From a virus: a stretch of 24,511 nucleotides of DNA. The stretch's first letter is position 1; every line of letters begins with the position of its first letter. The notes below the pieces were generated by a model that saw nothing but the letters and a program-made list of their open reading frames with translations, ran no database searches and was not told the DNA's origin. Below are positions 1-23,018 of this stretch, one piece after another. Location: positions 1 through 24,511 of IMG/VR virus record IMGVR_UViG_3300035698_004027; one strand, 5' to 3'. The position numbers were made by a program, and so were the translations under genes.

Positions 1-1289
1 CTGCTATCGCTTGAGAATAATTCTGAAGAACTAGAAGAACTACTTTCACTTGAAACAATACCAGAAACTGAGCTAGAACTAGAAGAACTAGAAGAACTAG
101 AAGAACTAGAAGAACTAGAAGAACTAGAAGAACTAGAAGAACTAGAAGAACTAGAAGAACTAGAAGAACTAGAAGAACTAGATTCACTACTATTAGAACT
201 AAATCCTACTGAACTACTTGAACTACTTGAACTACTTGAACTACTTGAACTACTTGAACTACTTGAGGAACTTGAACTAATATCTTCACCAAATTCTGTA
301 AAATAATAACAATTCAATAAATCATATGAGCTTTCAGAACTACTTGAAGATGATGTGCTAAACGCTATTGAGCTTGAGCTTGAACTTGAATTTGAATCTA
401 TTGAACTTGAACTTGAAGAGCTAACTGCAATTCCACCCCAACTCTCAGGTATCTCTTCATAATTAGTTGCACTTGAACAAAGCTTAAAACAATCGGTACC
501 ACCACCAGCGGGAGCAGGATCTATTTTCCATAACTCAGGAACTGCCGTTGCAACACTATTATTATTATAAAAACAAGCACCATAATAAATAGTAGATGTA
601 CAATTATCAAAAAGAGTAAGTGGAATATTCTCTATATTAGTATCTGTATGAAAACAAGATCTAAAATCTGTTACACCTGTAAGGTCATCAAACAATCCTT
701 CTGGAATAGCTGTTAATCCAGAACAAGATCTGAAGCAAGAACTTAAATTAGTAATAGCAGTTAACCCTTCAAATAGATTAGCGGGTATAGATGTTAAACC
801 AGAAGAATAAAAACCAGATGTTATTTTTGTGCAAGATGTAGCACCCCTAAATGTTCCTTCTGGTATAGTTGTTATATTAGAACAACCTCTAACAAAAAAC
901 TCTAAATCTTCTGCTAATGCAAGCTTACCAGTTTCATTAGGTAAAGATGTCATATTGGAACAGCCATAAAAATCAATCTTTAAGAAACCCGTATCTCCCC
1001 AAGCATCTACCGAATCAACATTTAATTTTGAACCAATATTATTAAAATGTATGGATGGACAATTACCAGCAATTTGTATTTGATAAGTTCCTGCTGTTGC
1101 ATATTCGTGAGAAGCGTCATCATCCCAAGCAGTAATATTAGAATTTGTTCCATCTCCCCAATAAACAACGCAATTAAAAGTTCCCTTATTATAAAAAGGC
1201 ATTGTGAAAGTTTCAGGCGTAGCGGTAGTAGTAATCGTCATTTTAAAACGATCTAATTCTGAACTACTAGAACTACTAGAATCAACCAT
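1..1289 (-). CDS. PKD/leucine-rich-repeat tail-tip or adhesion protein with polyserine tracts (partial, 3' end off window)
   Basis: The frame is open from ATG at 1289 to the left edge (429 codons), so the C-terminus is missing. The start follows AGGGG with 7-base spacing. Residues 4-10 are a Ser run. Residues 36-75 resemble a PKD-like beta-sandwich (YWGDGT, then HEYATAGTYQIQI). Residues 105-250 are BspA-type leucine-rich repeats of the form L-T-x-I-P-x-x-L-F with Cys-containing turns (SIPANLFEGLT, AIPEGLFDDLT). From residue 290 the chain is almost pure serine, broken by short islands including SVGFSS and, at the edge, ELFSSDS. PKD and BspA repeats are common in surface adhesins and phage tail tips. 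Its place at the distal end of the tail operon suggests a receptor-binding or decoration role, with the Ser tracts as a flexible stalk. The role is inferred; the domain calls are from visible motifs. Confidence 0.75.
   Translation of the reverse strand, partial: MVDSSSSSSSELDRFKMTITTTATPETFTMPFYNKGTFNCVVYWGDGTNSNITAWDDDASHEYATAGTYQIQIAGNCPSIHFNNIGSKLNVDSVDAWGDTGFLKIDFYGCSNMTSLPNETGKLALAEDLEFFVRGCSNITTIPEGTFRGATSCTKITSGFYSSGLTSIPANLFEGLTAITNLSSCFRSCSGLTAIPEGLFDDLTGVTDFRSCFHTDTNIENIPLTLFDNCTSTIYYGACFYNNNSVATAVPELWKIDPAPAGGGTDCFKLCSSATNYEEIPESWGGIAVSSSSSSSIDSNSSSSSSSIAFSTSSSSSSESSYDLLNCYYFTEFGEDISSSSSSSSSSSSSSSSSSSSSSSVGFSSNSSESSSSSSSSSSSSSSSSSSSSSSSSSSSSSSSSSSSSSSVSGIVSSESSSSSSSELFSSDS
76..182 (-). 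repeat. 9-bp tandem repeat encoding polyserine, about 12 copies
   Basis: On the plus strand the unit is GAACTAGAA, repeated about twelve times without error. On the coding strand it reads TCT AGT TCT, so each copy adds three serines. The perfect copies suggest recent slippage expansion, so length probably varies between relatives. Confidence 0.93.
211..264 (-). repeat. 9-bp tandem repeat encoding polyserine, six copies, different codon set
   Basis: Six perfect copies of GAACTACTT on the plus strand encode serines with AGT AGT TCA codons. Both the unit and the codons differ from the neighbouring array at 76-182, so this array expanded independently although both encode only serine. Confidence 0.92.
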
Positions 1290-1306
1290 TACTTATCCCC
1301 TTTAAA

Positions 1307-2098
1307 TTAAGCGTCTGTATTCCAGGCCCCATCACCCCAGACAGTAATAAATTTTGTTGCGGTAAGCTGGCGAATCATAAGGCTACTAGGTAATGCATAA
1401 TTTCTTACACTTACCTTTGTCCCAGCAACAGCACTATCATCTATTGTATCTCCAGCAGCACATTGCAAAGTAATCGTATACGCCAACTTAGTACTTATAA
1501 ATCCATAACCTTTACCAATATTCTCAGTAGTAGCTTTTGGTAAGTTAAATATGAAATCACAATCATTATCATGCACAAATGTATTACTTGCCTCACTTAC
1601 CAACACATCTCTAGGAGAATCAACACACTCAACAGCTATTATGTCATTACCAATCATCCACGGAAATGGAGGAAGATTTGTGTATAAAGCCCAGGAAATA
1701 ACAGTTGTCGTGTCAAGTATTGTTGCACCATCTAATGCAGGATTTCTTTTTAAGATAATCATACCATCAGATTGGACTATAGCTTCACTTGCGCCAGTAT
1801 CATATACGATTAATGATAATAGGAATTTACCATTGATAGCAGTTTTTGTAGCATCAAAATCGAAGAAAATAGTATTATCGCCTACAGTTACAACACCTTC
1901 AATCTCTACTATTTCAGATGCCTCTCTGTTTACACAATAAGTAAGTTTTGCTGTATTTTCTGCTGTAAATTCAACTGCAGTACCATCAGAATAAACATAG
2001 ATTTTTACATAAGGAGTACTACCCTCTGTCGTTTCCAAAAGCATACTCTCAGCTTGATGGTTAGTATCTATTGTTAAAGTATTTGTTATTATAGACAT
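1307..2098 (-). CDS. Baseplate/distal tail protein, BppU-N-like beta domain
   Basis: 263 residues starting after GGGAG at good spacing. The N-terminal half (about 30-120) alternates beta strands: VKIYVYSDGTAVEF, then LTYCVNR, IFFDFDA and GKFLLSLIVYD, ending in MIILKRNP. This pattern is typical of the N-terminal domain of upper baseplate proteins such as BppU, where it attaches receptor-binding parts to the tail tip. The C-terminal half (170-263) is also beta-rich, ends in VWGDGAWNTDA, and is not recognised. It lies between the tail fibre and the LRR protein, only 17 bases upstream of the latter, which supports a structural tail-tip role. The family call rests on pattern only. Confidence 0.5.
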   Translation of the reverse strand: MSIITNTLTIDTNHQAESMLLETTEGSTPYVKIYVYSDGTAVEFTAENTAKLTYCVNREASEIVEIEGVVTVGDNTIFFDFDATKTAINGKFLLSLIVYDTGASEAIVQSDGMIILKRNPALDGATILDTTTVISWALYTNLPPFPWMIGNDIIAVECVDSPRDVLVSEASNTFVHDNDCDFIFNLPKATTENIGKGYGFISTKLAYTITLQCAAGDTIDDSAVAGTKVSVRNYALPSSLMIRQLTATKFITVWGDGAWNTDA

Positions 2099-2155
2099 AT
2101 TTTCTCCCTGTTCCTTTAGTTAAGTTTACGAGAAACAAGCAATTTTGCCCAATAA

Positions 2156-2368
2156 TTAACAAGTAATAGTTGCTTCAGTTGCTTTTTCGTGTAAAACTTT
2201 AATCTTATCTCTTAATTTACTGAATATCTGAGCTTCTTTACTATTTAATTTTATGTTTATTTCTCCAACACCATTAAACATAATAGCCCACTCATCAGCT
2301 GTAAAATAATTTGCTACCTTAGTCAACACTTCATTTGCTTCTACTACTTCTACTACTTCTTCACTCAT
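2156..2368 (-). CDS. Small acidic protein of unknown function
   Basis: 70 residues, ATG preceded by GGAGAG at 5-base spacing. The N-terminus is strongly acidic (SEEVVEVVEANEV). The rest looks helical, with FTADEWAIMFNGV followed by an amphipathic stretch ending in LHEKATEATITC. There is no signal peptide or membrane segment. It sits between the fibre gene and the BppU-like gene, so it may be a fibre chaperone or a small structural part, but nothing in the sequence proves this. Confidence 0.6.
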   Translation of the reverse strand: MSEEVVEVVEANEVLTKVANYFTADEWAIMFNGVGEINIKLNSKEAQIFSKLRDKIKVLHEKATEATITC

Positions 2369-2384
2369 TTTATCTCTCCATTTT

Positions 2385-2413
2385 GTTTATCATACGTTTA
2401 TCATACGTTTATC
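2385..2413. repeat. 11-bp direct repeat (2.6 copies) across the fibre gene stop codon
   Basis: GTTTATCATAC occurs at 2385 and 2396, with a third partial copy at 2407. On the coding strand the fibre stop codon (TGA, 2403-2401) lies within the repeat. The extra copies fall downstream of the stop and so do not change the protein. Confidence 0.85.
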
Positions 2414-4545
2414 AATCCATGTGTTCTTAGTTTTGCCAACAAATCGTTTAACTGAGTTGTAACATCGGTAACATCAGTAACAAGCTTATCTATCTCAGTT
2501 CTTGCAACACCATCTGAATCAGCACCACCTGCACCAACAGCCGATGCCGTTACTGCAGCATCTGCAATAGCTACAGCTTGAGCACCCACTACCTGAGTTC
2601 CATTACTCTTAAAAGATGAACCAACTGAGTTAACATATGTAGTTGCTTCAACATAACTGCCTGCCGATACATATGTAGTAGCATCAACATAAGTTCCAGC
2701 ATTAACACTTGTTCCTGCTGTTATACTTGTTCCTGCATCAATTAAAGCAGATGCCCAAATACTTCCAGTTACATCTAGTGAAGCACCAACCCAAGCCCCA
2801 CCAGTAACCTTTAATGCGCCAGTAGAACCAGCTTTTGTTGCAGCAATTGTATTTTCAACAAGGAATTTTTGAAGGGCAGCAACAGTCCAATCACCAGTAT
2901 TACCTTTTAATATTTGTCCAGATAAACTTATTACTTCATTATCAGTAGCACTACCAATTGAACTACCCCAATTATGAAGGTATGTATCATCTGTTCCACC
3001 TGCTTCTCCGCTATCTGCATCTCCGTTCATCCAATATGCGCCATGGTCATTTTTATAATTAATACCAGATGGATTCCCTTCCTTAATATCTGACAAAAGC
3101 CTATGAGTGTTCTTAGGGTCATCTGTTATACAATCCCATACATCATCGCAATCAACAATGTCTAAACAACTTCTTACCCAATCGCAATCTAAGCCTCCAC
3201 TAGTTTCAAGCCAATCACCAATATCATTAGCATCACAATATTTTAATACTCTATCACCAGCACCATCTACATTTCTAAATAATATCATATCAGTTGCAAG
3301 CAAAGGAGTACTTACATCAGTATGAAACTCAATTAACTGTAGATAATTATTACCAGCCTGTACTTCTATTGACCATTGAGCTGTACCATTTGTATTAGAA
3401 TCTATTGTTGACCAGAGTAATTCACCCTGCATCTGACCACCAGCATCTGCAATATCTGAAGAAAAGTAAGGTACAGAATAACTACTTGCTACTGTACTTG
3501 TTGCACCCTTTAAACCAATAACATTAAACGGATTACCAGGGCTTGAATAATTATCAACATTAGCATCTTCCCATATCTCTAATGTTGAGTGGGTGGAAGG
3601 ATTTTGAGGCTTGTAATGCGAATCAATCCCAGCCCAATCTATAAAACCTTCTGGGCCAACCGTAGTCCAATTATCAGTAAAGCTGTCAAAATACGGAATA
3701 CTCTTTGCCTTATAACCCGAACACCTGTCAACATTATATATCTGAAGTTCACCATAATGTTGATTTGTTCCCGTTTCCATAGGGTCTAAAACTGTATTAT
3801 ATTCCAAAGTATATCTTTTATTGGGTTTTGTTAAAATATTTTGATTATCAGCATCTGTAATAAACCCAGAGTCCTTTATATCAATATTTACTCTCTGCTT
3901 TATTTTGCTAATCATCCACCCACTAGCAGTTTCTACATTTTCTTGTAATTGAATGATTCCAATAATTTCTCTCGTTTTAACAAAAATAGTTGAATCGGCT
4001 GCTGGATGAGTACCTACATAATCAGGATTTTTAGCACCAGCTTCTTCAGCATCTGTATTTATATAAAGATTTAATTTCCCTGGAATTATAGCTGCATTAA
4101 ATGACCAACCACCAGTTGCACCAAGATCCTCATCTAATTCTACATAAACATAAATATCAGTATTTTTTTCTATAATTATTGTAGGATCTCCACCCTCTAT
4201 TATTTCATCTAAGGTTATTAATAATTTATCTTCATTGTCTGGGTCAAGATGCCCTAAACCACCATCATATAGTTTAACAGCAATTGTATTTCTTACCCAA
4301 CTACCTATAAAAACAGACAAAGTATTACCATCATATTCTTGCATTCTAAAAGGGAAATCTACAATTATAGTATTCCTAGGTAATGTTGAATTTAATACAC
4401 CATCGTTTGTATGATAATCTACTGAAGAAGGGTCTATATTGGTTTTATCATACTTGTTAGCAACCTCAACTAATTTGTTGTAGTCATCAACTGGTATACT
4501 CCTCTGACCCACCTCAGCTTCATTTACATTTCCTTGGTCTGACAT
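2401..4545 (-). CDS. Tail fibre-like protein with repetitive beta stem and C-terminal coiled coil
   Basis: 714 residues, start after AAGGAG. Residues 1-230 form a mixed beta domain that probably attaches to the tail. A middle region contains a Cys/Trp/Asp-rich segment (YCDANDIGDW, then CDWVRSCLDIVDCDDVWDC) that could bind metal or form disulfides. Near residues 580-660 are degenerate six- to seven-residue repeats rich in Gly, Ala, Thr and Val (AGTSITAGTSVNAGTYVDA and similar), as in beta-helical fibre stems. The last 35 residues form a heptad-like coil (EIDKLVTDVTDVTTQLNDLLAKL), a plausible trimerisation end. The call as a fibre combines these features with position after the tape measure. 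No enzymatic motif is evident. Confidence 0.65.
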   Translation of the reverse strand: MSDQGNVNEAEVGQRSIPVDDYNKLVEVANKYDKTNIDPSSVDYHTNDGVLNSTLPRNTIIVDFPFRMQEYDGNTLSVFIGSWVRNTIAVKLYDGGLGHLDPDNEDKLLITLDEIIEGGDPTIIIEKNTDIYVYVELDEDLGATGGWSFNAAIIPGKLNLYINTDAEEAGAKNPDYVGTHPAADSTIFVKTREIIGIIQLQENVETASGWMISKIKQRVNIDIKDSGFITDADNQNILTKPNKRYTLEYNTVLDPMETGTNQHYGELQIYNVDRCSGYKAKSIPYFDSFTDNWTTVGPEGFIDWAGIDSHYKPQNPSTHSTLEIWEDANVDNYSSPGNPFNVIGLKGATSTVASSYSVPYFSSDIADAGGQMQGELLWSTIDSNTNGTAQWSIEVQAGNNYLQLIEFHTDVSTPLLATDMILFRNVDGAGDRVLKYCDANDIGDWLETSGGLDCDWVRSCLDIVDCDDVWDCITDDPKNTHRLLSDIKEGNPSGINYKNDHGAYWMNGDADSGEAGGTDDTYLHNWGSSIGSATDNEVISLSGQILKGNTGDWTVAALQKFLVENTIAATKAGSTGALKVTGGAWVGASLDVTGSIWASALIDAGTSITAGTSVNAGTYVDATTYVSAGSYVEATTYVNSVGSSFKSNGTQVVGAQAVAIADAAVTASAVGAGGADSDGVARTEIDKLVTDVTDVTTQLNDLLAKLRTHGLINV

Positions 4546-4555
4546 TAAAAACTCC

Positions 4556-5377
4556 TTAAGGTATTATAATAGTTCCAAAATCTGTAGTTAAATAAACAAG
4601 GTCTGTGTCTACATCAGCAACTTGTTTATTGCCAACTAACTGCCAGTCTGGTGACCCAGGTGACTCTGGTTTAGGGTTCCAATAATAGTTCCAAGAATTA
4701 TCAACTTGAACAGCAGGAAGAACATTATTAGGGGAAACATAAAGAATTCTATAAGCAAAATTCATAGTTACTTCCCATTTTCGTTCGCCCTCTGCATCTA
4801 ATACAAGTTTATCATTAGTAGAAACAAATAAAACATTACCCTTTGCAAACGGATAATACCAAAGTTGTACTGGTAGAATGCCATTATTTATTTTGCCCAA
4901 TCTAGGCATTATTTCTGCAATTCTAAAATCAGTATACGCTTGGTCGTCATCTAAAAGTAATGTTTTACTCATAGAACCTCTAACCGTATTCTTGTAAAGC
5001 CTACCGTTATATTTAGTTTTATCTTTCTGCCAATACCAAGATTTAGGTGATTCAATACTAACCATCTCAGAACCACCACTAGATATAAAATTATCAGGGT
5101 CAGTTTTAGGAACATTAGTAGTATCATGTTCAGAACTACTGCTAGATGTCGTATAAGCACAAGTATATTTATATTTACAGTCAATATCTTCAAAATGATA
5201 TTCTACTTCAGTTATACTATCACATATACTATTAGGATACGTTATAGAAAAAGAGTCACCTAGCGCTGGCAAATCATCAGTACCACCAGTATGTTCTATG
5301 AAAACTCTTGTTCCAGTAGTTCCAGCGGTAGTGTTGACCGCCTCATAACCTTCTCTTAACTCTTTATATCCTGCCAT
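4556..5377 (-). CDS. Putative distal tail/baseplate structural protein
   Basis: 273 residues, start after AAGGAG with 5-base spacing, 10 bases downstream of the tape measure and 10 bases upstream of the fibre gene. It is beta-rich and aromatic (SWYWQKDK, PVQLWYYPFAKGN, WNYYWNPKPESP), with no membrane segment. Around residue 77 is a run of five serines (TTSSSSSEHDTT), echoing the Ser-rich tracts of the LRR protein and capsid paralogue. The slot directly after the tape measure usually holds the distal tail or hub protein, and that is my positional guess. I do not recognise a specific family. Confidence 0.45.
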   Translation of the reverse strand: MAGYKELREGYEAVNTTAGTTGTRVFIEHTGGTDDLPALGDSFSITYPNSICDSITEVEYHFEDIDCKYKYTCAYTTSSSSSEHDTTNVPKTDPDNFISSGGSEMVSIESPKSWYWQKDKTKYNGRLYKNTVRGSMSKTLLLDDDQAYTDFRIAEIMPRLGKINNGILPVQLWYYPFAKGNVLFVSTNDKLVLDAEGERKWEVTMNFAYRILYVSPNNVLPAVQVDNSWNYYWNPKPESPGSPDWQLVGNKQVADVDTDLVYLTTDFGTIIIP

Positions 5378-5386
5378 TACTTCTCC

Positions 5387-6865
5387 TTATACAAATATAG
5401 GGTTGCCATCACCAGCTGTGTTCTTTTCTATATTACTTAAACTCTTATTACCAATCTTAATTGTAGATAGAATCTCACTCAACACCTCTTGAGTTTTACT
5501 AATCCCACTTCTTGTAGTTGCTTGTTCCTGAGGTTTAACGGCAGCTGCATTAACTCCACCCTTCAACCCTAACTTTGTGCCACCAGCATCCTTCTGTGCC
5601 AATCTTAAGATATCTTCAGCATTTGAAAACGTTGCACCTTTTTCTTTCTGGACAGCACGTTCATTCGCAATTATTTCTTTAGTAGTATTTTTAGAAGCCC
5701 TTCTATCTTTTGCTGCCGCTGCTGCTATCGCTATTGATTGTTTTATTGCATTGCTTTGTATTAAATCAGTTGTTTCTTTATACTTTTTAGCCATTTTGTC
5801 AAACGCTGCTTCCACCTCTTCTGCTGACATGGTTATATCTCTTGTAATGTCATTAATATCAAAATCTGTGTCATTAATTAAATTAGCTAAGGTTCTGCCA
5901 ATTTTTTGACCGAAAAACTTTGTATCAGCCATGAAATCATTCCAAAATGCTTTAGCAACTAAATCCATCGCCTTAAAAGCAAATGTAGTCATTGCAACTA
6001 TATGTTTATATGTAGCAGCAACTAATATTCCCCATTCCTCAAATTTACCTGAAGATGCAAGGTCTATAATTTTATCATTTAAACTTACAAACAAAGTTTT
6101 AAGTTTAAACATAATGCGACTAGCTGCAATAAATTTAATAATTGCCTGACCAGTACTATCTTTTAGCTGAATAAATTGTTCATTCATTGCTCTCTGCTGG
6201 TTGGCAAAACTACTAGCTGTTCTTTCATAATCACCAACAGCATTTTTGCTTAATTTTATTAACTGATTAAAAACATCTTGAGCTTTAGCTACCTTGAGTG
6301 TTTCCCCAGTTAGCGCCATCATTGTTTTAACTCTAGCATTATGTTCCTTATCTAGAGAAACAGCATATTTTAACTGGTTACGAACAGATTTGGTTTGACC
6401 AATCATAGCTTTAGTCATCATAAATGCTGCCCTTGCTGCCCCACCTTCAACATCTTTAAATGAAGCAACATCACCAGCTAACGTTCCAATAGCAGCAGAC
6501 ATCTCTAATGATTTCTCTTTGGTAAATCCTAAACTAGTTAACAAATCACCAGTATCTGCTAACATTGTTTTAGTTGACCCATCTGCTAAATCAAAACTCT
6601 TAGATATTTTCTTAGCTGCTGCATCTGCTTGGTCGCCTATACCTTTAAATATAATATCAAATCTCTGTCTAGTTTCATTAAATTCAGACGCAACCTTAAC
6701 AGAAGCTTTACCAAAATCAAATAGTTTCTTTGCAGCAAAAGCAACACCTGCAGCAACAGCTAACCCTTTTAAACTGCCTTTGATTCTGGAAACACCTTGT
6801 TCATAATTCTTAGTGTTTGCCTTTATATCAACTACGGCCTCAGCTAGTTTTTCTTTATATGGCAT
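5387..6865 (-). CDS. Tail tape measure protein (short)
   Basis: 492 residues, start two bases after the upstream stop, with GAGAGG as binding site. Tape measure proteins line the tail tube and set its length. Visible signs are long Ala/Lys-rich helical stretches, a hydrophobic glycine-containing segment at about 30-50 (LKGLAVAAGVAFAAKKLF), the ASEFNETRQRFDIIFKG motif region common in phage tape measures, and a second Ala-rich helix (IKQSIAIAAAAAKDRR) near 370. At roughly 0.15 nm per residue it would give a tail of about 74 nm at most. The chaperone pair directly upstream and the distal tail genes downstream are the normal neighbours. Confidence 0.85.
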   Translation of the reverse strand: MPYKEKLAEAVVDIKANTKNYEQGVSRIKGSLKGLAVAAGVAFAAKKLFDFGKASVKVASEFNETRQRFDIIFKGIGDQADAAAKKISKSFDLADGSTKTMLADTGDLLTSLGFTKEKSLEMSAAIGTLAGDVASFKDVEGGAARAAFMMTKAMIGQTKSVRNQLKYAVSLDKEHNARVKTMMALTGETLKVAKAQDVFNQLIKLSKNAVGDYERTASSFANQQRAMNEQFIQLKDSTGQAIIKFIAASRIMFKLKTLFVSLNDKIIDLASSGKFEEWGILVAATYKHIVAMTTFAFKAMDLVAKAFWNDFMADTKFFGQKIGRTLANLINDTDFDINDITRDITMSAEEVEAAFDKMAKKYKETTDLIQSNAIKQSIAIAAAAAKDRRASKNTTKEIIANERAVQKEKGATFSNAEDILRLAQKDAGGTKLGLKGGVNAAAVKPQEQATTRSGISKTQEVLSEILSTIKIGNKSLSNIEKNTAGDGNPIFV

Positions 6866-6867
6866 AC

Positions 6868-7242
6868 TTACCTCTCTTTAGGTTCAATTATCTTATATTG
6901 GTCATTTGGTTTCATTTTACCAATCTCTCTTATAATCTCATTCATAGAAAATGACTTCTTACCTGTTTTCCTTCTTAAAGAATTCCTTGCATCTCTAATA
7001 TTAAATACATTATTAATCTTGTCATCATGGTCTATCTTACAATCAACAGTACTTGCCAACTTGCCAGAACTTGGGTCTTTAGGCTGCTTAGTTCCAAATA
7101 TCTGAGATATATAGTCATTTACTGTCCTTACATCTAACTTATATGCCTTCTGCTCATTTGCATGCCTAGCATAAAACAAAAACTGCGGCAAAGAGAACGA
7201 TAAACACAGGGATGGAGTAAACCCAGGGAATATCTCACACAT
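6868..7242 (-). CDS. Downstream reading frame of the tail assembly chaperone (gpT-like)
   Basis: This frame encodes 124 residues from its own ATG at 7242. It is also reached in the -1 frame from the upstream chaperone gene with no stop in between, so its usual product is probably the C-terminal part of a frameshift fusion. The start of this part (CEIFPGFTPSLCLSFSLPQFLFYARH) is hydrophobic and the end is basic and charged. In lambda the corresponding gpT part contacts the tail tube protein and tape measure. Its ATG has AAGGAG nine bases upstream, so separate initiation cannot be excluded. The stop is two bases before the tape measure start. Confidence 0.7.
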   Translation of the reverse strand: MCEIFPGFTPSLCLSFSLPQFLFYARHANEQKAYKLDVRTVNDYISQIFGTKQPKDPSSGKLASTVDCKIDHDDKINNVFNIRDARNSLRRKTGKKSFSMNEIIREIGKMKPNDQYKIIEPKER

Positions 7243-7766
7243 AGTACAAATCTCCTTGCCCCAGTCAATATTTTCATCACTATTATTTATTAAACCGTTT
7301 TTTTTTCCGCTCCCTCTTCAGACTCTTCAGACTCTTCAACTGACAATTCTATATTCTCCATACCAGCTATCCAATTAATAACAGGAGTCAGTTCACCAAG
7401 GTTTTCAAACTTGATATTGTCCTTAATGATTTCTTCACTAACATCATTTAAATCTTTTGAAGCTAGATAAATAATATCATATATACCGTCAACTGATGCC
7501 ATTGTATCAGTCACTTTATCGGTAAGGTCAGAACCAGTAGGTAAATTCTTCCATACATCAAGAAGGAAATCCTTTCTAGTGTCAGAATCCATTATAGAAG
7601 CCATTTCTTGAGCTTCAACAATTTTTTGGTTCTTTATTTTCTGCTCAAAATGACCAAACATTTCTTTGATCGATAATTGACGCAACTTTAACTTAATATC
7701 CCCAATAGATACTTCTCTTGGGGAATTAGCTAACTCACTAACACTTAGTTTTTTATTGTCTGTCAT
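6868..7766 (-). CDS. Tail assembly chaperone frameshift fusion (gpGT-like), -1 slip at 7298-7306
   Basis: A -1 slip on the A9 tract joins the upstream chaperone (start 7766) to the frame ending at 6868, for a product of about 299 residues. After the slip the frame reads NGLINNSDENIDWGKEICT and enters the 6868-7242 frame at its Met. Tail chaperone genes just before the tape measure in long-tailed phages nearly always use such a slip to make a minority fusion that recruits tube subunits onto the tape measure. Open frames on both sides of the slip and the classic position make this convincing. The efficiency is unknown. Confidence 0.8.
7290..7766 (-). CDS. Tail assembly chaperone (gpG-like), zero-frame product
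   Basis: About 158 residues from ATG at 7766 (MTDNKKLSVSELANSP). I prefer this start to the ATG five codons upstream because GGAGG lies eight bases before it and the upstream ATG has no binding site. The protein is acidic and helical with the pattern of siphophage tail chaperones (DIKLKLRQLSIKEMFGHFEQ, DVWKNLPTG, DIIYLASKDLNDVSEE) and ends in an acidic tail (SVEESEESEEG) before the slippery AAA codons. It lies between the tail tube and tape measure genes, as expected. Most ribosomes should end at the TAA at 7290. Confidence 0.8.
   Translation of the reverse strand: MTDNKKLSVSELANSPREVSIGDIKLKLRQLSIKEMFGHFEQKIKNQKIVEAQEMASIMDSDTRKDFLLDVWKNLPTGSDLTDKVTDTMASVDGIYDIIYLASKDLNDVSEEIIKDNIKFENLGELTPVINWIAGMENIELSVEESEESEEGAEKKTV
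7298..7306 (-). promoter_or_regulatory. Programmed -1 ribosomal frameshift site (A9 slippery run)
   Basis: On the coding strand GCGG is followed by nine A residues and then CGGTTTAA, the zero-frame stop. Reading AAA AAA A lets both tRNAs re-pair after slipping back one base. A purine-rich GAGGGAG lies just upstream and may act as an internal Shine-Dalgarno stimulator, as in dnaX. I see no strong downstream hairpin. Confidence 0.8.
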
Positions 7767-7799
7767 TTTAATATCCTCCATTTTATGACATTGACTTTA

Positions 7800-8135
7800 T
7801 TAAGTTACTACTACCGCTCCGTTGAACGTAAAACCCTGGGAATAATCCATGATCCCTTCAATATCGTTAGTGATTGTTTCTTCGTGCCATAATACTGAGC
7901 CAGCTATACTCACACCCCCAGCAGTATTAGCCAACACAATTGAACTTGAACCAGTATACCTTTCAGTACTGGTAATCGTTCCTGTAGCCGATTTGAGGCC
8001 CTCTACAAACTCTCTCCATCCGTTAGAACAGAAATCAGTCGCATCAAGCATATCAGTACTAATTGTTACTTCCCAACTTTTTATTTCATTACAAGCACCA
8101 TCTACGGTCCCAGTTTTCCCTGATATTGCAGCCAT
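7800..8135 (-). CDS. Major tail tube protein (short)
   Basis: 111 residues with AAGGAGG before the ATG. The chain is predicted nearly all beta. It opens with AAISGKTGTVDGACNEIKSW, passes through ATDFCSNGWREFVEGLKSATGTI and ends GFTFNGAVVVT. The pattern 'insert, substitution of residues, WREFVEGLKSATGTITSTERY' is typical of small siphophage tube proteins that stack as hexameric rings. It sits between the tail completion gene and the chaperones, the normal place for a tube gene. Confidence 0.75.
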   Translation of the reverse strand: MAAISGKTGTVDGACNEIKSWEVTISTDMLDATDFCSNGWREFVEGLKSATGTITSTERYTGSSSIVLANTAGGVSIAGSVLWHEETITNDIEGIMDYSQGFTFNGAVVVT

Positions 8136-8202
8136 TATAGCCTCCTTATTTTGTTTTGTTTTCCTATTCTTAACTTACTCACTCAAGTAAGTTTATTATT
8201 TA

Positions 8203-8649
8203 TTACCTATCTTTTTCAACAATATATTGAATTTCTATGATAACATTCCACATTTTATTTTCATCTTTAAACTTTCTCTGTCCAACTGTATCAGAACGTA
8301 TCATTGTATATCCATTAGCCATAGTCAAAATCTCATCACCAAATACAACTAAAAATTCATCAGCAACAGTTAAAAGATCTATGGAACTCTTATTGTTAGC
8401 ATCTCCAAATATAGTGAACTGAACTAAAGGCTCAAACATATTTGAACAAGCATCCTGCTCCAACCCAGTAAATATAATAGAAAATACTATAAACGGCTTA
8501 ATAGCATTACTAGGTTCACCACTCTGAGTCTGAAGCTTAACTGTACTTGGAGCCTCATCCTCAAAAAGCCCAGCTGTTAATGCCCTCAATGCAGCACCAC
8601 CAGCAGAGTTATATTGTGTCATAACAACTGTCTGTAAATCTTTTAGCAT
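8203..8649 (-). CDS. Tail completion / tail terminator protein (DUF3168-like)
   Basis: 148 residues. The start ATG shares one base with the stop of the upstream gene (TAATG), and only a weak GAAG precedes it, so translation is probably coupled. The sequence shows the DUF3168 pattern: ALRALTAGLFEDEAP near the start, PFIVFSIIF, then QFTIFGDANNKSSIDLLTVADEFL, and a final strand EIQYIVEKDR. Proteins of this kind close the head-side end of the tail tube. Position between connector genes and tube gene agrees. Confidence 0.75.
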   Translation of the reverse strand: MLKDLQTVVMTQYNSAGGAALRALTAGLFEDEAPSTVKLQTQSGEPSNAIKPFIVFSIIFTGLEQDACSNMFEPLVQFTIFGDANNKSSIDLLTVADEFLVVFGDEILTMANGYTMIRSDTVGQRKFKDENKMWNVIIEIQYIVEKDR

Positions 8650-8882
8650 TATTTTTCTTCTATTTTAGGTTTAATAACAGCATCCTCTGGAATACTAATT
8701 ACTTTATCGCAACTCTTGCAAGAAAATCCATCAGGAACACCATGCGCACATACACTCATAAAATGCAATGTATCTTTATCAACCATCTTATTCTCAATCT
8801 TAGCCTTCTTCATTTCTAATCTCCTTTTCTTACGAGCTGCTCTAAACTTTTTCTTACTGTTCTTACACCCACTACAAGCCAT
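8649..8882 (-). CDS. Small zinc-ribbon-like basic protein
   Basis: 77 residues. The ATG shares a base with the upstream stop (TAATG) and follows AGGGG. Cys at 3 and 6 is followed by a very basic helix (KNSKKKFRAARKKRRLEMKKAK), and a second cluster reads CAHGVPDGFSCKSC, so four to six possible zinc ligands are present. It may bind DNA or RNA, but no family is certain. The spot, inside the connector block, usually holds only structural genes. A similar C-x-H ... C-x-x-C arrangement occurs in the partial gene at the right edge. Confidence 0.65.
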   Translation of the reverse strand: MACSGCKNSKKKFRAARKKRRLEMKKAKIENKMVDKDTLHFMSVCAHGVPDGFSCKSCDKVISIPEDAVIKPKIEEK

Positions 8883-9166
8883 TATATACCCCTACTGCTT
8901 TTTAGACCAGGTCTAAAAAACGGATGAGCAGCAGTTCTAGATGTTCCAAATTCAACATACTTAGCATATTCCAAATCAGACCCTATTTCATAATACATAG
9001 GCTGAACCTTACTAACATGTATAGACTCTCTTAATCTCCCTGTATCAACTGGACACATTGACTGTATTTTCTTTTTAGTTTTTTCAGCAGATTTCTTCAT
9101 TCTACGGTCTATATACCTAAAAAGCCCAGATGTGTAACTCCTACCAAACCATTTTACTTTATTCAT
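8882..9166 (-). CDS. HK97 gp10-like head-tail connector / neck protein
   Basis: 94 residues, starting two bases after the upstream stop with AGGGG. The sequence has the diagnostic HK97_gp10 features: a basic N-terminal helix (RRMKKSAEKTKKKIQS), the CPVDTGRLRESIHV motif, then YEIGSDLEYAKYVEFGTSRTAAHPFFRPGL. Proteins of this family take part in joining head and tail. Gene order (connector, head closure, gp10-like, completion) is standard. Confidence 0.9.
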   Translation of the reverse strand: MNKVKWFGRSYTSGLFRYIDRRMKKSAEKTKKKIQSMCPVDTGRLRESIHVSKVQPMYYEIGSDLEYAKYVEFGTSRTAAHPFFRPGLKSSRGI

Positions 9167-9167
9167 A

Positions 9168-9488
9168 CTAACCCCTATATGTTACATCAACCTCAATAGT
9201 ACCTTTTTTAGCAGAAGTAGTATTTACAGTATTAACATCAAACACCCTGTTGTCCGTCACAAGCTCGTCAGAACTTTTGATATCCACTTCATCACAATAT
9301 ACACGATGGGTGCTAATCGTCCCATCCTTGCCCCCTAAAGGCTGTTCTGTTGCCTGTAATTGTCTAACTCTCCCAGCTATAGTCATAACAGTAGTTTTAA
9401 CCTGAGTTACACCACCTACAGCATCAATTGTGTTAAGGTTTAACCTCTTAACAACTATTTTAGAATTATAAAGTGATTTCCTACTCAT
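9168..9488 (-). CDS. Head closure / head-tail joining protein
   Basis: 106 residues. Its ATG shares one base with the stop of the connector gene (TAATG at 9488), suggesting coupled translation. The beta-rich pattern includes KIVVKRLNLNTIDAVGGVTQV, MTIAGRVRQLQATEQPLGGKDGTISTHRVYCDEVDI and a final VTYRG, which matches the small 'stopper' proteins of siphophages that plug the connector after packaging. Assignment relies on size, fold pattern and position between the connector and gp10-like genes. Confidence 0.7.
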   Translation of the reverse strand: MSRKSLYNSKIVVKRLNLNTIDAVGGVTQVKTTVMTIAGRVRQLQATEQPLGGKDGTISTHRVYCDEVDIKSSDELVTDNRVFDVNTVNTTSAKKGTIEVDVTYRG

Positions 9489-10378
9489 TAAATACTTATC
9501 CTCGCATACAGGCTAAGGTCCTTCCAATGCCTATCTATAACAGAAGTAATTTTATGACGACTATAACTATAATCACCTATCTTTTCTGACTGTTGATTAC
9601 CATCTTCATTCTTGTAATCCATAATTTCTTTGACAATAGTGTTCACAACAAGAGTCAGCCCTTCAGGTACATTTCCAGCAGTTGTTAATGTTCCACCAGA
9701 ATCATCTGATACGGGAAATTCGTATCCCCCAGTATACCAACAGAATATATCACCATAAAAATAACCATCACATAAACGTTCTATAGTACAATCAGAATCA
9801 TGTGCAATTCTTACATCACCACCCAAATAAGGAGTAGTTAAATGAACTTGCTCATCTACAGCCCAACCAGAATCTAATGGGCGAATCAATTGAGTTAGTG
9901 AATTACCTCTATCAGATAACACTTCAACAGTCCAACCAGCTGTTAAATCCATAGCAGTTACCAAATCAGTTACATTTGTATAAGTAGCATATAAAAATTC
10001 AGTTTCAAGTTCTACCGCATCTGTGCCAATTTCAGTTAAAGTAACTCCTGTAGCATTACTCGTAACAGTAGCTAATGGATTACCAGTATTCTTAATTGTC
10101 AATACATCTACACAATTCCCTGATACCAATTTAATAGCAGTAATAGGATAATTATCAAGTACAATATATTCAGTTCCAGAACCTTCAACCCATTCTTTAT
10201 ATGTAGCAGACTGAAAATTCCTACCACACTTCTTGCCTATTAAATCACAAGTTTCATCTATGATATATCTTAGAACTTCTGTATCACTAATGTTACTGGA
10301 AACATCATCATTAACATCATTTATGAATCTATTATAAAGATATAGATTTGTTAGATTCGATACACCTTTTGCAGCCAT
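9488..10378 (-). CDS. Head-tail connector protein (gp6/gp15-like) with central insertion
   Basis: 296 residues; ATG preceded by AAGGGGG and sharing one base with the stop of the homing endonuclease. The N-terminal helices (TEVLRYIIDETCDLIGKKCGRNF), the strand TEYIVLDNYPITAI and the C-terminal helix (GLTLVVNTIVKEIMDYKN) followed by EKIGDYSYSRHKITS are the pattern of HK97 gp6 / SPP1 gp15 adaptors, which form a ring under the portal. Family members are often 100-200 residues. Here roughly residues 90-170, a beta-rich and Thr-rich stretch, look inserted between strand and helix, possibly an extra domain facing outward. Confidence 0.75.
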   Translation of the reverse strand: MAAKGVSNLTNLYLYNRFINDVNDDVSSNISDTEVLRYIIDETCDLIGKKCGRNFQSATYKEWVEGSGTEYIVLDNYPITAIKLVSGNCVDVLTIKNTGNPLATVTSNATGVTLTEIGTDAVELETEFLYATYTNVTDLVTAMDLTAGWTVEVLSDRGNSLTQLIRPLDSGWAVDEQVHLTTPYLGGDVRIAHDSDCTIERLCDGYFYGDIFCWYTGGYEFPVSDDSGGTLTTAGNVPEGLTLVVNTIVKEIMDYKNEDGNQQSEKIGDYSYSRHKITSVIDRHWKDLSLYARISI

Positions 10379-11109
10379 TACGATACCCCCTTAAGCTTTC
10401 TTTTAGCCCAGTTCTTTTTCATTTGTTCAGACCTCCTTTTGCTTTGCTCTTGAGTATACTTATAGCCTTTAGCATTCTTTTTACCGCACATTGCTATGGA
10501 ATGCTTTTCTTTTTCTTCTTCAGACTGATTACGACCTTTTGTCCATGTGTTCTTACCTTTAGCAGATATACTCATTTTCTTTTTTGTTTCTTCAGTGTGC
10601 TTTCTACCAAGGGGCGATATTTTCTTTTTTGTTTCTTCAGTATGCTTTTTACCCATACGCCCTTTACTAATTTTATCTCTAGTTTCTTGCGATTGCGACT
10701 TCCCCATATTTGATTTACTAATTCTTTTTCTAGTTTCTTTAGAACAAACTCTTCCCATACCTGCTTTGCTAATTTTAATTTTAGTTTCTTCAGAAAGAGT
10801 TTTTCTTGTACCAGACTCCATATTATAGCCGTTATTTATGCTATCATAATATTCCATCCACGTATCTTCTCTATTAAGTAGAACGTCATCTATACACTTT
10901 TCAACAGCTTTAAACTCAAAACTATCAGCACCGTATCTATTCCAAGCCCTTTGCAGGTGTTTATTATGATGCTTGTTCAGCCTAAGTTCAGAGCGATGAC
11001 AGGTGAACCTATTTCTAAAACCAACTGTAGACCCAGTACATCCAATATAAACCTTATTGTTCACAAGGTTAAATATTCCATATATACCAGATTCTGTGCC
11101 TTTAGCCAT
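10378..11109 (-). CDS. GIY-YIG homing endonuclease with NUMOD3-like repeats
   Basis: 243 residues, RBS GGAGGT just before ATG. The catalytic module is at 1-100: GIY at 8-10, YIG at 21-23, Arg32/Arg34 (FRNRF), the metal-binding Glu81 in NREDTWMEYY, and Asn96 in GYN. Residues 105-185 contain about five copies of a 17-residue DNA-binding motif of the NUMOD3 type (S/T-x-E-T-K-x-K-I-S ... G-K), visible in the DNA as repeats of about 51 bases. Such enzymes cut an allele lacking the gene and are copied in by repair. It is free-standing, lying between the capsid paralogue and the connector gene, and overlaps the connector start. Active residues all look intact. Confidence 0.93.
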   Translation of the reverse strand: MAKGTESGIYGIFNLVNNKVYIGCTGSTVGFRNRFTCHRSELRLNKHHNKHLQRAWNRYGADSFEFKAVEKCIDDVLLNREDTWMEYYDSINNGYNMESGTRKTLSEETKIKISKAGMGRVCSKETRKRISKSNMGKSQSQETRDKISKGRMGKKHTEETKKKISPLGRKHTEETKKKMSISAKGKNTWTKGRNQSEEEKEKHSIAMCGKKNAKGYKYTQEQSKRRSEQMKKNWAKRKLKGVS

Positions 11110-11118
11110 GTTACCTCC

Positions 11119-11148
11119 AAAAATAAGGGGGCTAAATTAATAACCCCC
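11119..11148 (-). terminator. Probable intrinsic terminator after the capsid paralogue
   Basis: On the minus strand GGGGG (11148-11144) pairs with CCCCC (11131-11127), extended by three inner pairs including one G-T, with a loop of TTAATT. A TTATTTTT tract follows. It lies 8 bases after the capsid paralogue stop. The tract runs straight into the RBS of the endonuclease gene. Confidence 0.6.
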
Positions 11149-11155
11149 ATTGTAA

Positions 11156-12298
11156 TTACGTACTTGAGCTGTCAGAACTGTCAGAACTAAATTTCTCAGA
11201 ACTACTTGAACTAGACGAAGAAGAACTAGAAGAAGAAGAACTAGATGAACTAGAAGAACTAGAAGAACTAGACGAAGAACTAAATCCTACAGATGAACTA
11301 CTTGAACTCGATGTAGACTCACTAGATTGTTCCATATCTGCCTTCATAACAAATGCTGATACAACAGAACCATCTTGAGTAGTCATTGTAGAATTCCATC
11401 CACTCTTACCATTAATCCTATGTACCCAACGATAACATAATTCATCCTGGAGAAATTTTAACGACTCATTTACATCAGAAGTAATTTCTTTCTCAGCAAT
11501 ACAATACTGGCTCATATCAGCAAGAAGTATATCATCCACATTCATTACATCAGTTATAACAATAGGTAATCCAAGAATTCTACCTAGTGGAGCACCTTCT
11601 GAAGGATTAGGATTAAATACATTCGGAGCAGTAGTTAAGTCAAGATCAATAATCTCTTCATAACCACCTTTACTCATATACCATTTACCATTAGGATTGC
11701 CATAGTAAGAATGATACATATCTTCTAACTCAGCCAATGTAATAGGGTCAGTGTTTGCAACAAATATAGTTGAAGCATCTGCGGCTATACCATTAATAGT
11801 ATTAGAAGGATAATTGCTACCATATATAATAGCTCTATCAATCTGCCACATCATACTCTCAGTTACAGCACCAGAAATATATGTCTGAAGTGCAACAGCA
11901 TCCATAAACAACTCTTCAGTTATATATACGATTCCTACAAGTTTGTTTAAACTAAGGTCAATCTGTGCAAACTGTCCTTTTGAAGGTGTTTTAGTAACTC
12001 CCTCACCAACCCAATACGTTAATACTCCACCCTTGATACCAGATGTGTTACGTGTAGGTTCAGCAGCAATAGATATCTTTAAACCATTAGCATTTTCGCC
12101 AACCTTAAAAATTTTACATTTAGAATATAGTGAACCTTCTGCGAAATTTGGACTGAAGATTTCTGCTGTTACTGGATGGTCAACTAGGTAACCGCCCTCA
12201 ATGTCAGTTTTTTCATTCTGCCCCGTTGACTTAACAATAGCGCCTGTTCTCAATGACTGCAACTTTTTACCCATTTCTTCTAGTTTCTCGATTTTCAT
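11156..12298 (-). CDS. Second HK97-fold capsid protein (paralogue) with C-terminal polyserine tail
   Basis: 380 residues from ATG at 12298, chosen because AAGGAG is six bases upstream; the ATG two codons earlier abuts that site. The core aligns by eye with the major capsid protein encoded just upstream: KSTGQNE, GG-Y/F-LV-x-H, NGLKI, G-E-G-x-TKT, Q-I-D-x-SL-x-K, Y-x-T-x-EL, and the final QDGS/PSGD-x-VS-x-FV. It lacks the roughly 100-residue charged N-terminal region of the other protein, having only 22 residues before KSTGQNE. The last 56 residues are mostly serine, with SVGFSS near the start and EKFSSDSSDSS at the end. It could be a vertex, minor or decorating capsid subunit. The role is inferred. 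Confidence 0.85.
   Translation of the reverse strand: MKIEKLEEMGKKLQSLRTGAIVKSTGQNEKTDIEGGYLVDHPVTAEIFSPNFAEGSLYSKCKIFKVGENANGLKISIAAEPTRNTSGIKGGVLTYWVGEGVTKTPSKGQFAQIDLSLNKLVGIVYITEELFMDAVALQTYISGAVTESMMWQIDRAIIYGSNYPSNTINGIAADASTIFVANTDPITLAELEDMYHSYYGNPNGKWYMSKGGYEEIIDLDLTTAPNVFNPNPSEGAPLGRILGLPIVITDVMNVDDILLADMSQYCIAEKEITSDVNESLKFLQDELCYRWVHRINGKSGWNSTMTTQDGSVVSAFVMKADMEQSSESTSSSSSSSVGFSSSSSSSSSSSSSSSSSSSSSSSSSSSSEKFSSDSSDSSST
11159..11326 (-). repeat. Polyserine-coding low-complexity tract
   Basis: The final 56 codons of the capsid paralogue are almost all TCT, TCA, AGT or TCG serine codons arranged in imperfect 9-base repeats of GAACTAGAA type. The string GAACTAAATCCTAC also occurs in the polyserine region of the LRR gene near 197, suggesting shared origin. 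Confidence 0.85.
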
Positions 12299-12357
12299 TA
12301 CCATCTCCTTAGTTTTTGCCCTTGTTTAAGGCGTGATTAATAATACACTCCAACTAA

Positions 12358-12426: not shown

Positions 12427-12466
12427 AAAAAAAAAGAGCCTGAGTAATTAAACTCAGGCTCTTTTT
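12427..12466 (-). terminator. Strong rho-independent terminator after the major capsid gene
   Basis: A perfect 15-base-pair stem (12431-12445 with 12452-12466, core AGAGCCTGAGT) with a 6-base loop. On the minus strand it is followed by a run of nine T. It lies 25 bases beyond the major capsid stop. A-tracts on both sides mean it could stop transcription from either direction. Confidence 0.93.
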
Positions 12467-12490: not shown

Positions 12491-13750
12491 TCAGTCTCTG
12501 GTAACAAATGGTGACACCAGGTCCCCACTTGGAAGAGTAATTGCACTTGCAATTTTTGGTGACCCGCCTAAGCGTCCAACAAAGCGAAATGCGGTCTCAT
12601 CTTCGAGAAAGGCAATGTGTATACTGGTATCTTTTTTGATTCCACCCTTCTTGATAACAAGATACTGGCTAAGGTCAAGGAACATGATGGATGTATCATC
12701 AGCTGCGGCCCCTGCTTGCTCTATAACGTTAATTGGACGACCAAAAAGTGTTCCATAGGCGGAAACTTCATAACTAGGCTGTACCAATTTAACACCACTT
12801 GTAGACTCAAGCTGACCAATTGCTACGAATTGAGCCAAACTCATGTACCACTCAGCACGATTAATAGACTGAGGAGCCATTGAAGCATACATACCCATCA
12901 ACTCAGCAGCAGTTGGATTGTCACCAGCAACTGTGTACTGAATAGTAGCTGCATGATTTTCAATCTCTATCATATCTGTGTTAGTTGTGCCATGAAGAAT
13001 GTCATCATCCGCTACCCATGCAAAAGCCGCCGAAACGTCCTTAGTGAGCATACTTTCAAGTGCAACCTTATCCTGAAGCAATTCATCCGTACAATAGACA
13101 ACCGCCGCCATCTTACCAAGAGAAATGTCAATCTGTGAGAAAGCCTGTGAGAAAGCAGTCTTAGTTGAACCTTCACCTGGACTATAAACACGAACACCAC
13201 CAAACAATGTAGTAGCAGAACGAGTAGACTCATTAACCTGATTGATTTTCAAACCATTAGAGTTAGGTCCTATTTCAACTTGGTCGCACTTAGGAAGTAA
13301 GATTGACTGCTGAGCAGCTAAACGATAGATTTCATTACTAAGGTTATGCTGGACCAAAAAACCGCCATCGGCCCCAGTAGTTTCATTCTGGCCCGTCGAT
13401 TTATACAATCTTTCATCAACATTTCCACGAGAAGCCTTTACAACAGCACCAAGGAACTCGCCAGAATCTTTCCAAAGAGGAGCATCTTCAACAACTACAA
13501 CAGCAGTTTTTGTTTCAACTTCTTTTTCAGTTTCTTTCATAGCTTCAGTAACTGCAGACTTAATTTCTTTAGCCATATCAGCTTTAATATCTTCAGCCTT
13601 AACTTCCTTTACAACACCATCACTAGCTTCTGCTCTTTCAGCCTTGATAAGCTCTTCAGCAACATCATCAGACACTTCAAGAATAGAACCAGAATCATAG
13701 ACGTTATCATCAACATCCATATATTTCTTAATCAACTTTATAAACTTCAT
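12491..13750 (-). CDS. Major capsid protein, HK97 fold, with N-terminal scaffolding-like region
   Basis: 419 residues with AAAGGAG before ATG. Residues 1-90 are charged and helical (SDDVAEELIKAERAEA, KADMAKEIKSAVTEAMKETEKEVETK), matching the HK97 delta domain that acts as scaffold and is removed by the prohead protease encoded just upstream. From about 118 the HK97 family pattern begins: KSTGQNETTGADGGFLVQ, NSNGLKINQ, GGVRVYSPGEGSTKT, QIDISLGKMAAVVYCTDELL, a middle domain, and the closing FLEDETAFRFVGRLGG with PSGDLVSPFVTRD. The gene has its own 150-base leader and a strong terminator, as expected for the most abundant virion protein. Confidence 0.93.
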   Translation of the reverse strand: MKFIKLIKKYMDVDDNVYDSGSILEVSDDVAEELIKAERAEASDGVVKEVKAEDIKADMAKEIKSAVTEAMKETEKEVETKTAVVVVEDAPLWKDSGEFLGAVVKASRGNVDERLYKSTGQNETTGADGGFLVQHNLSNEIYRLAAQQSILLPKCDQVEIGPNSNGLKINQVNESTRSATTLFGGVRVYSPGEGSTKTAFSQAFSQIDISLGKMAAVVYCTDELLQDKVALESMLTKDVSAAFAWVADDDILHGTTNTDMIEIENHAATIQYTVAGDNPTAAELMGMYASMAPQSINRAEWYMSLAQFVAIGQLESTSGVKLVQPSYEVSAYGTLFGRPINVIEQAGAAADDTSIMFLDLSQYLVIKKGGIKKDTSIHIAFLEDETAFRFVGRLGGSPKIASAITLPSGDLVSPFVTRD

Positions 13751-20559: not shown

Positions 20560-21264
20560 TCATTTGAGTATAACTAATCCTATACCTGGTGAACTAGCAT
20601 CTACTGACAAATCTATTGTTTTGTGTGTATTTGATAATTCATTAAACAATTTACTAGAGCCGTATCTTCCATCTTTTATATCGTGAAAAGCTATATATCT
20701 TGAATCTTTGAATTGATTAAACGTATTAAGCATAGAATCATATCTTTGGTTAGTATCTATAAAAACTAAATCAAAGGGTTCTGTTTGATAATCATCTGAG
20801 TGCATATGTAGGAATTCACATGTAGGATTAAGTTTATGATATATATTGAATGTTTTGCATGCTTGGATATCTAGTTCTAGTTCTCTCAGTATTCTTCTTT
20901 TGGTATTAGTAATAGTATTTATGTTTGTTTCATTGAGGTCTAAGCGTGTATCTAGTCCTATTGATTTGATATAATTGGGATTTATTGACCTAAAGTAAGC
21001 GTCTAGTATAATAAAGCTACCGCCAAGATATGTACCTACTTCGCAATATTTGGTTACATTTAGTTTATTCATGTACTTCATTAAGTTTAATAATTCATGT
21101 GGGTGTTGGCTTACAGACACATCGGAATATCTTTTATCTCTATATCCTTTAGCTCCAAAACGTACTGCACTAGGTAATGTATTTTCTAATTCATCAATAT
21201 CATTTAATTCAAAGAATTCATTTAGTTTATTAGCTGGTGTTCTTGGTATTCTTGGTGTTTTCAT
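20560..21264 (-). CDS. Class I SAM-dependent methyltransferase (Methyltransf_24-like)
   Basis: 234 residues, AAAGGAG before ATG, overlapping the upstream gene by four bases (ATGA). SAM-binding motif I is EVGTYLGGS (75-83), followed by the acidic residue after strand 2 in IGLDTR (102-107), the FDLVFIDTNQRYD strand (164-176) and IAFHDI (191-196). FIDxxxxYD and FHD-I are characteristic of Methyltransf_24 and related O-methyltransferases acting on sugars or small molecules. It ends the accessory cassette. The substrate cannot be read from the sequence. Modification of a glycan on host or virion is a guess. Confidence 0.8.
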   Translation of the reverse strand: MKTPRIPRTPANKLNEFFELNDIDELENTLPSAVRFGAKGYRDKRYSDVSVSQHPHELLNLMKYMNKLNVTKYCEVGTYLGGSFIILDAYFRSINPNYIKSIGLDTRLDLNETNINTITNTKRRILRELELDIQACKTFNIYHKLNPTCEFLHMHSDDYQTEPFDLVFIDTNQRYDSMLNTFNQFKDSRYIAFHDIKDGRYGSSKLFNELSNTHKTIDLSVDASSPGIGLVILK

Positions 21265-22149: not shown

Positions 22150-22468
22150 TTTTCCCCTTTTCATATAATTTTACGAAATCTTCTAGTGATAGTTCTGCTA
22201 TTGCTGAGTAATCCATACAGTATATTTCATGGATATATTTAAACTTGGTTTTCAAATCACTATCACTGTTACATCTAGCCATATGAATTTTATCATTTAT
22301 TGCATTTATTCCACTTATAATAGCATTTATTGCACATATAATAGTTGCTGAGAAAAAGCATGCTATACAATAAAATTTACATACTTCTAAATATGGTGAT
22401 AAAAATAAGCCAATTCCAACAACAAATAGAATTATTGCTATTGTTTTTAATATACGTTTAATTTTCAC
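22142..22468 (-). CDS. Small inner-membrane protein, GTG start
   Basis: 108 residues beginning with GTG, supported by AAAGGAG four bases upstream. Two hydrophobic segments (about 6-27, LKTIAIILFVVGIGLFLSPYL, and 32-57, FYCIACFFSATIICAINAII) predict a two-pass membrane protein with a charged cytoplasmic tail of about 45 residues. It overlaps the upstream methyltransferase gene by 11 bases. It may anchor other cassette proteins or act alone on the membrane. No family is recognised. Confidence 0.65.
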   Translation of the reverse strand: MKIKRILKTIAIILFVVGIGLFLSPYLEVCKFYCIACFFSATIICAINAIISGINAINDKIHMARCNSDSDLKTKFKYIHEIYCMDYSAIAELSLEDFVKLYEKGKNE

Positions 22469-23018
22469 TATTCTCCTTTATATATATACCGAAACATCTT
22501 CTATTTAATATTTCGTGTGTTAATTTCCATCCGTATTTATCTACAGTGTCATTCCAGCCTTTATATCGTTTAGCATCTCTAGTTGTGTAATTGTTTCTAT
22601 ATCTTTTGATTTTATGGTAGTCGTGAACAATTAATGTGGTGTTTTCATTGAACAGGTTGTTTTCCATACAGTATATTAAAGGCATTTCTCTTTGATGACC
22701 TTCTGCTTCTGGTTCACATCCTACATGAGAGTCTACTAGGATATATTGATAATGCATTACAGGTACATCTTTCATTTTGTTTACAATATTCACATTTGGT
22801 ACATGTTCTTTAATCATATCTATAGCTGGTTGGTATTCTTCTACTGTTGTGTAATCTTTAAAGCCTAGTTGATTTAGATACCAAGTAGATATTCCGCCAC
22901 CTATCTCTAGTATTGATTCTTGGTTAGTTGGTTGTTCAGTTATATAGTCAGCAAGGAGATTCATTGTTTTCTCTCTTGGACTCCATCTAGAACTTCTCTG
23001 TGGGCAAGTTATTAACAT
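22458..23018 (-). CDS. SAM-dependent methyltransferase-like protein
   Basis: 186 residues, AAGGA before ATG, overlapping the upstream gene by seven bases. Motif I is LEIGGGIST (37-45), the acidic end of strand 2 is TVEEY (58-62), strand 4 is YILVDSHVG (92-100), and strand 5 is LIVHDYHK (129-136). This is a compact class I fold without extra domains. The N-terminus (CPQRSSRWSPREKTMNLLADYI) may form the cap. The substrate is unknown. It is one of four such genes in a row. Confidence 0.7.
   Translation of the reverse strand: MLITCPQRSSRWSPREKTMNLLADYITEQPTNQESILEIGGGISTWYLNQLGFKDYTTVEEYQPAIDMIKEHVPNVNIVNKMKDVPVMHYQYILVDSHVGCEPEAEGHQREMPLIYCMENNLFNENTTLIVHDYHKIKRYRNNYTTRDAKRYKGWNDTVDKYGWKLTHEILNRRCFGIYIKENSEN

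Follow-up and report, generated by a model that had tools for sequence, protein, structure and literature searches.

Serine-rich tracts were identified on several virion proteins of an uncultured tailed phage lineage that encodes two paralogous HK97-fold capsid proteins. The reading that we favour, with more confidence than doubt, is that these tracts are exposed, disordered tethers, and that the second capsid protein (MCP2) is a display subunit that co-assembles with the main capsid protein (MCP1). Entry of MCP2 into the virion is suggested by homology and synteny, and the tether reading depends on relatives of the phage, because its own MCP2 tail carries no cargo.

Serine-rich tails of a capsid paralogue and the tail-end protein

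The window, meaning the whole stretch of DNA analysed, is a 24.5-kb IMG/VR virus record (IMGVR_UViG_3300035698_004027; 24,511 nt) that represents a genome fragment. Its minus strand codes for a terminase, a portal, a putative head protease, the two HK97-fold capsid proteins, connectors, a putative tape measure and tail-end genes. The features of interest are as follows.

3..1289, minus strand: tail-end ORF with leucine-rich repeats (LRR), cut by the contig end, bearing Ser tracts at each end and lying downstream of the putative tape measure, in synteny with relatives
3..23, minus strand: ELFSSDS island of the LRR protein
3..296, minus strand: second C-terminal Ser tract (residues 332-429) of the LRR protein, containing a perfect 9-bp array at 75-182 and another 9-bp array at 206-279
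195..212, minus strand: SVGFSS island of the LRR protein
312..443, minus strand: first C-terminal Ser tract of the LRR protein, residues 283-326, with islands ID and IAF
430..1250, minus strand: PKD-like start and BspA-type leucine-rich repeats of the LRR protein
1242..1289, minus strand: N-terminal Ser tract of the LRR protein (MVDSSSSSSSELD)
10378..11109, minus strand: homing endonuclease gene (GIY-YIG/NUMOD3) immediately behind MCP2, missing from relatives at the same site
11127..11148, minus strand: intrinsic-terminator-like hairpin after MCP2 (consensus match; 1.6 expected by chance in the region)
11156..12304, minus strand: MCP2, HK97-fold capsid paralogue (PF05065, E 5.5e-31), with the same paralogue in six relatives
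11159..11338, minus strand: Ser-rich C-terminal tail of MCP2, residues 323-382 (60 residues), a bare end without the domain of relatives
11177..11197, minus strand: EKFSSDS island of MCP2
11276..11293, minus strand: SVGFSS island of MCP2
12431..12466, minus strand: intrinsic-terminator-like hairpin of 15 pairs after MCP1
12491..13750, minus strand: MCP1, main HK97-fold capsid protein (PF05065, E 1.4e-35)

Both capsid proteins scored above the Pfam gathering cut-off for PF05065 (24.2 bits), with 123.5 bits for MCP1 and 108.4 bits for MCP2. MCP1 was found to possess an N-terminal delta-like region and no Ser tail, while MCP2 has no such region and ends in a Ser-rich tail. This tail reads in frame as QSSESTSSSSSSSVGFSS, then 28 serines, then EKFSSDSSDSSST and the stop codon, and it ends free, with no second folded domain beyond the tract. 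Phage T4 likewise encodes a pair of capsid paralogues, gp23 and gp24, as two HK97-fold proteins within one phage; however, gp24 sits at the vertices and, unlike MCP2, has no Ser tail. Each of the two capsid genes of the window has one of the terminator-like hairpins listed above behind it.

As a single sequence, the tail-end protein matched LRR_5 below the cut-off (E 8e-4), while a profile of three LRR homologues matched solved LRR structures with an E-value of 8.4e-16, identifying it as a protein of the BspA type. The C-terminal part of its ORF runs in frame through SVGFSSNSSE, a long Ser run and VSGIVSSESSSSSSSELFSSDS to the contig end, and its true C-terminus lies outside the window because the contig stops there. 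Its position in the window does not stem from chimeric assembly, which was ruled out because a relative (L163) keeps the same order of putative tape measure, g4556, g2401, g1307 and tail-end protein.

The preliminary description had reported SVGFSS, long Ser runs and E-x-FSSDS on both MCP2 and the LRR ORF, and all were verified in frame on the minus strand, with the N-terminal tract of the LRR protein adding a third serine site. The Ser runs of 38 and 28 residues found in the window are long, nearly pure serine stretches of the polyserine-linker type. The SSSSSEHD stretch it had also listed in the gene at 4556 is real, but comprises five serines only and is missing from the homologue in L119. 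Near the right end of the contig, four weakly methyltransferase-like genes were identified (20560-21264 and 22458-24180), three of which overlap in a row; a clear Methyltransf_24 gene lies between the portal and the protease in the related contig L167.

Relatives of the phage and history of the capsid duplication

When IMG/VR was scanned with one codon pattern of the SVGFSS cassette, the seven matches were all due to chance, and searches with the window MCP2 alone or the LRR domain alone gave no useful relative. A looser, degenerate GFSS pattern recovered IMGVR_UViG_3300031227_000482 (L119/L163), which has the same gene order as the window. Profiles made from L163 and the window then recovered L164, L169, L170, L171 and L172, in addition to L165 and L167, which stop in or just after MCP1 and are not among the six relatives compared for MCP2. 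No prophage was found among the genome contigs searched for MCP1.

All six relatives that reach past MCP1 encode an MCP1 without a Ser tail followed directly by an MCP2 with a Ser-rich tail, and in all seven genomes this tail begins at the same point, after a conserved FVM (FVV in L169). The window MCP1 is 63-67% identical to those of five relatives and 49% identical to that of L171, with MCP2 (44-47%) being more divergent between phages than MCP1 in most. In the tree, MCP1 and MCP2 each formed a single clade with support of 100/100, showing that the duplication is older than the lineage. The window branches outside the other six phages in the MCP2 tree (94/93) and groups with L170 in the MCP1 tree (100/99), a conflict that suggests recombination at MCP2.

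The MCP2 tail of every one of the six relatives, and thus of six of the seven phages, holds a domain of about 90 residues with the pattern NGxYxYxGxYNG...GTYYLWY...GYWAMS...GDPxxQW...CPDG, which the window MCP2 lacks. Given the possible recombination at the window MCP2, this bare tail is compatible with loss of the domain as well as with its original absence. In L164, L169 and L172, the MCP2 domain has a Ser tract on either side. Versions of it were also identified between the Ser tracts of a tail protein of L169 and at the end of a Ser-rich connector protein of L171, with a similar stretch in a Ser-rich protein of L087, which lies outside the lineage. Searches of Pfam, PHROGs, the PDB and isolated phages gave no match to the domain, and among the Pfam families no Ig family was hit.

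Serine tracts in tail-end proteins were found in four genomes, the window included, and the tail-end proteins of L163, L169 and L171 consist of folded domains alternating with Ser tracts; in L171 the tracts follow an S-x-S pattern and are not pure serine. A Ser tract between two folded domains was seen in L164, L169, L171 and L172. The preliminary description had offered flexible spacers as one role for the dense serines, and this fits best, because the tracts of relatives lie between folded domains. As the tails hold an extra domain in most relatives, they look like tethers for surface display.

Further observations were made on these contigs. A head-tail connector homologue and a small gene of L171 (L186:412-2451 and L186:2911-3858) bear very long Ser-rich extensions that include words such as YIENWSS and STPSS. 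The +1 frame is open across the MCP2 Ser tracts in L163 (10334-10657), L170 (7127-7591) and L169 (10896-11171), giving VLL-rich ORFs of 92-155 aa, probably as a by-product of the mix of AGY and TCN codons. In L172, two inteins seem to interrupt the 1261-aa ORF of the terminase large subunit (1825-5607): the Walker A motif would carry one of them, with LAGLIDADG, and the Walker B motif the other.

Shared islands at the DNA and protein levels

The DNA string GTAGGATTTAGTTC, which had been noted as shared by the two tails, was located on the minus strand at 196-209 and again at 11277-11290, and this 14-mer occurs exactly twice in the window, against 0.01 matches expected by chance. The two carriers are of unrelated fold (HK97 capsid, PF05065, and leucine-rich repeat), as had been proposed, and their tracts have more than serine in common. 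From this the preliminary description had derived a single low-complexity module copied between virion genes, such that the shared islands would be remains of one DNA cassette in the window genome. Around the VGF core of SVGFSS, the two genes agree in ten codons if a one-codon gap is allowed (P = 0.0003-0.003 given the protein sequences, uncorrected for the island having been noticed before testing), and this island may have been copied as DNA inside the window genome. The ExFSSDS islands, by contrast, share no codon (GAG AAA TTT AGT TCT GAC AGT for EKF and GAA TTA TTC TCA AGC GAT AGC for ELF), with even the two serine codon classes swapped between the genes, so that a copied module containing both islands is not supported.

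The suggested alignment of the two tails at the DNA level gave a score of 57, which was reached in none of 3000 synonymous-codon shuffles but in 134 of 3000 simulations (4.5%) with a codon model retaining 9-bp periodicity, making the whole-tract score weak evidence. Repeated 9-bp units make up both window tracts, and the 12 copies at 75-182 are perfect; these array lengths are assembly-derived, and copy numbers may be wrong because short-read contigs tend to break in such tracts. A comparison of the LRR proteins of the window and of a different phage gave a score of 57 as well, and the bulk of this score therefore probably comes from (AGT TCT TCT) arrays.

When the cassette was sought in related phages, Ser tails and island words were found to recur, but the DNA likeness of capsid and tail tracts was mostly within the range of codon shuffles, and the equivalent EGFSS pair of L163 shares one of three word codons. 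Agreement between the Ser codons flanking shared islands was 0.32 within a genome and 0.27 between genomes (about 0.22-0.31 expected), while within one protein it was 0.50, as slippage predicts. Ser codons around the islands are thus random between genes, indicating that the islands recur at the protein level. With the tracts also being older than the window phage, we consider a single copied DNA cassette to be distinctly unlikely.

The non-serine islands of the lineage tracts come from a small vocabulary, to which SVGFSS and ExFSSDS belong (VGF, EGF, EKF, ELF, EKY, EEY, ENY and so on), with I/V-D-S and EGN as other recurring words. The motif E-x-[FYW]-S was observed 19 times against a null mean of 1.5 and a maximum of 8 in 2000 shuffles, and the tracts of 106 unrelated polyserine ORFs, 8,813 residues in all, do not contain it; having been defined after the sequences were inspected, it has statistics that are descriptive. 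These words recur across proteins and genomes with differing codons, and they thus appear to be kept at the protein level. A tentative extension, to which we give a low probability, is that E-x-aromatic-S, I/V-D-S and EGN form a recognition code unique to the lineage, by which a single partner (an enzyme that modifies them, an assembly factor or a ligand on a surface) would recognise the Ser tethers of several virion proteins.

The perfect 9-bp arrays would also be produced if the tracts were selfish or neutral slippage products merely tolerated at protein ends, and a single mutation of a Ser codon can give Phe, Gly, Asn, Thr or Leu, the last being the most frequent single-residue interruption of polyserine in unrelated proteins. 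However, all seven genomes keep the tail on MCP2 and none on MCP1, folded domains follow beyond the tracts, and the island words are non-random and in several cases cannot be reached from Ser by a single mutation per codon, making this explanation very improbable.

Proposed display, possible modification and parallels in other systems

For the favoured reading of the tracts as tethers, the following course can be proposed. MCP1 would build the shell, and MCP2 would join the assembly as a display subunit with its Ser-rich C-terminal tail projecting from the shell. In six of the seven phages the tail would hold out the small folded domain, probably a surface-binding module, and in the window phage it would be bare. 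The same type of tether would connect leucine-rich-repeat and other domains in tail-end proteins. Slippage of the 9-bp units would allow the tracts to expand and contract, with the short lineage-specific words being maintained at the protein level and only SVGFSS of the window genome possibly being a DNA copy.

Polyserine linkers have been described in secreted carbohydrate-active enzymes of Teredinibacter, Saccharophagus and Cellvibrio, where they contain about 83% Ser with a mean of 44 residues (PMC2699552). Those linkers are likewise long and near-pure in serine and join independent, often surface-binding, domains (PMC2699552), whereas the present tracts are on phage virion proteins and contain aromatic-acidic words, and that of the window MCP2 ends free. 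T4 Hoc and other capsid proteins with Ig-like domains display variable binding domains on the shell via flexible linkers, and have been proposed to aid virion adhesion (PMC10385173). The arrangement proposed here is similar, but Hoc, with its Ig-like domains, decorates the capsid as a separate protein, while the carrier in this lineage is a capsid paralogue and its domain is one without a Pfam, PHROGs or PDB match.

Dense serines could instead serve as scaffolds for densely attached O-glycans, or for another modification, so as to shield or decorate the virion, with E-x-aromatic-S guiding the modifying enzyme, and attachment of sugars had been raised in the preliminary description. Glycosylated major capsid proteins have been reported in the mycobacteriophages Che8 and Rita (PMC11256854), which would resemble the present case in carrying covalent modifications on the virion surface, and the four methyltransferase-like genes at the end of the window would suit a modification of this kind. 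Glycosyltransferase genes are described for the Che8 and Rita group (PMC11256854), whereas the seven lineage records, mostly fragments, gave no match to PF00535 (family-2 glycosyltransferase) or PF05050 (FkbM family), the two families scanned. PF00535 was present in 6 of 42 polyserine records and in 3 of 40 controls (a convenience sample of records matched by chance), which is no clear excess, and the methyltransferase-like genes had no match among the loci of relatives. Sugar attachment is thus not supported by these results; as most lineage contigs are fragments, dense modification keeps some probability, though we judge it rather unlikely.

Polyserine runs are common in viral contigs, as a polyserine DNA pattern fetched 103 viral loci, 24 of which have at least two ORFs with runs of at least 10. 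Four contigs that are unrelated to the lineage (L037, L046, L082 and L101) each encode both a capsid-cement protein (PF09956) and a tail-tube-like protein with polyserine tails at the C-terminus. Bare tails on two proteins of one virion are what a modified surface coat would need, and they also suggest that exposed virion proteins acquire such tails repeatedly. A search of the literature for polyserine in phage virions found nothing relevant.

Should the tracts be tethers, a duplicated capsid gene would have become a built-in display platform in this lineage, with polyserine tethers joining an unclassified domain to the shell. The cement and tail-tube tails of unrelated phages suggest a general route for coating virions, of which we found no description, and the lineage provides a concrete, testable case for the role of extreme low-complexity tails on viruses.
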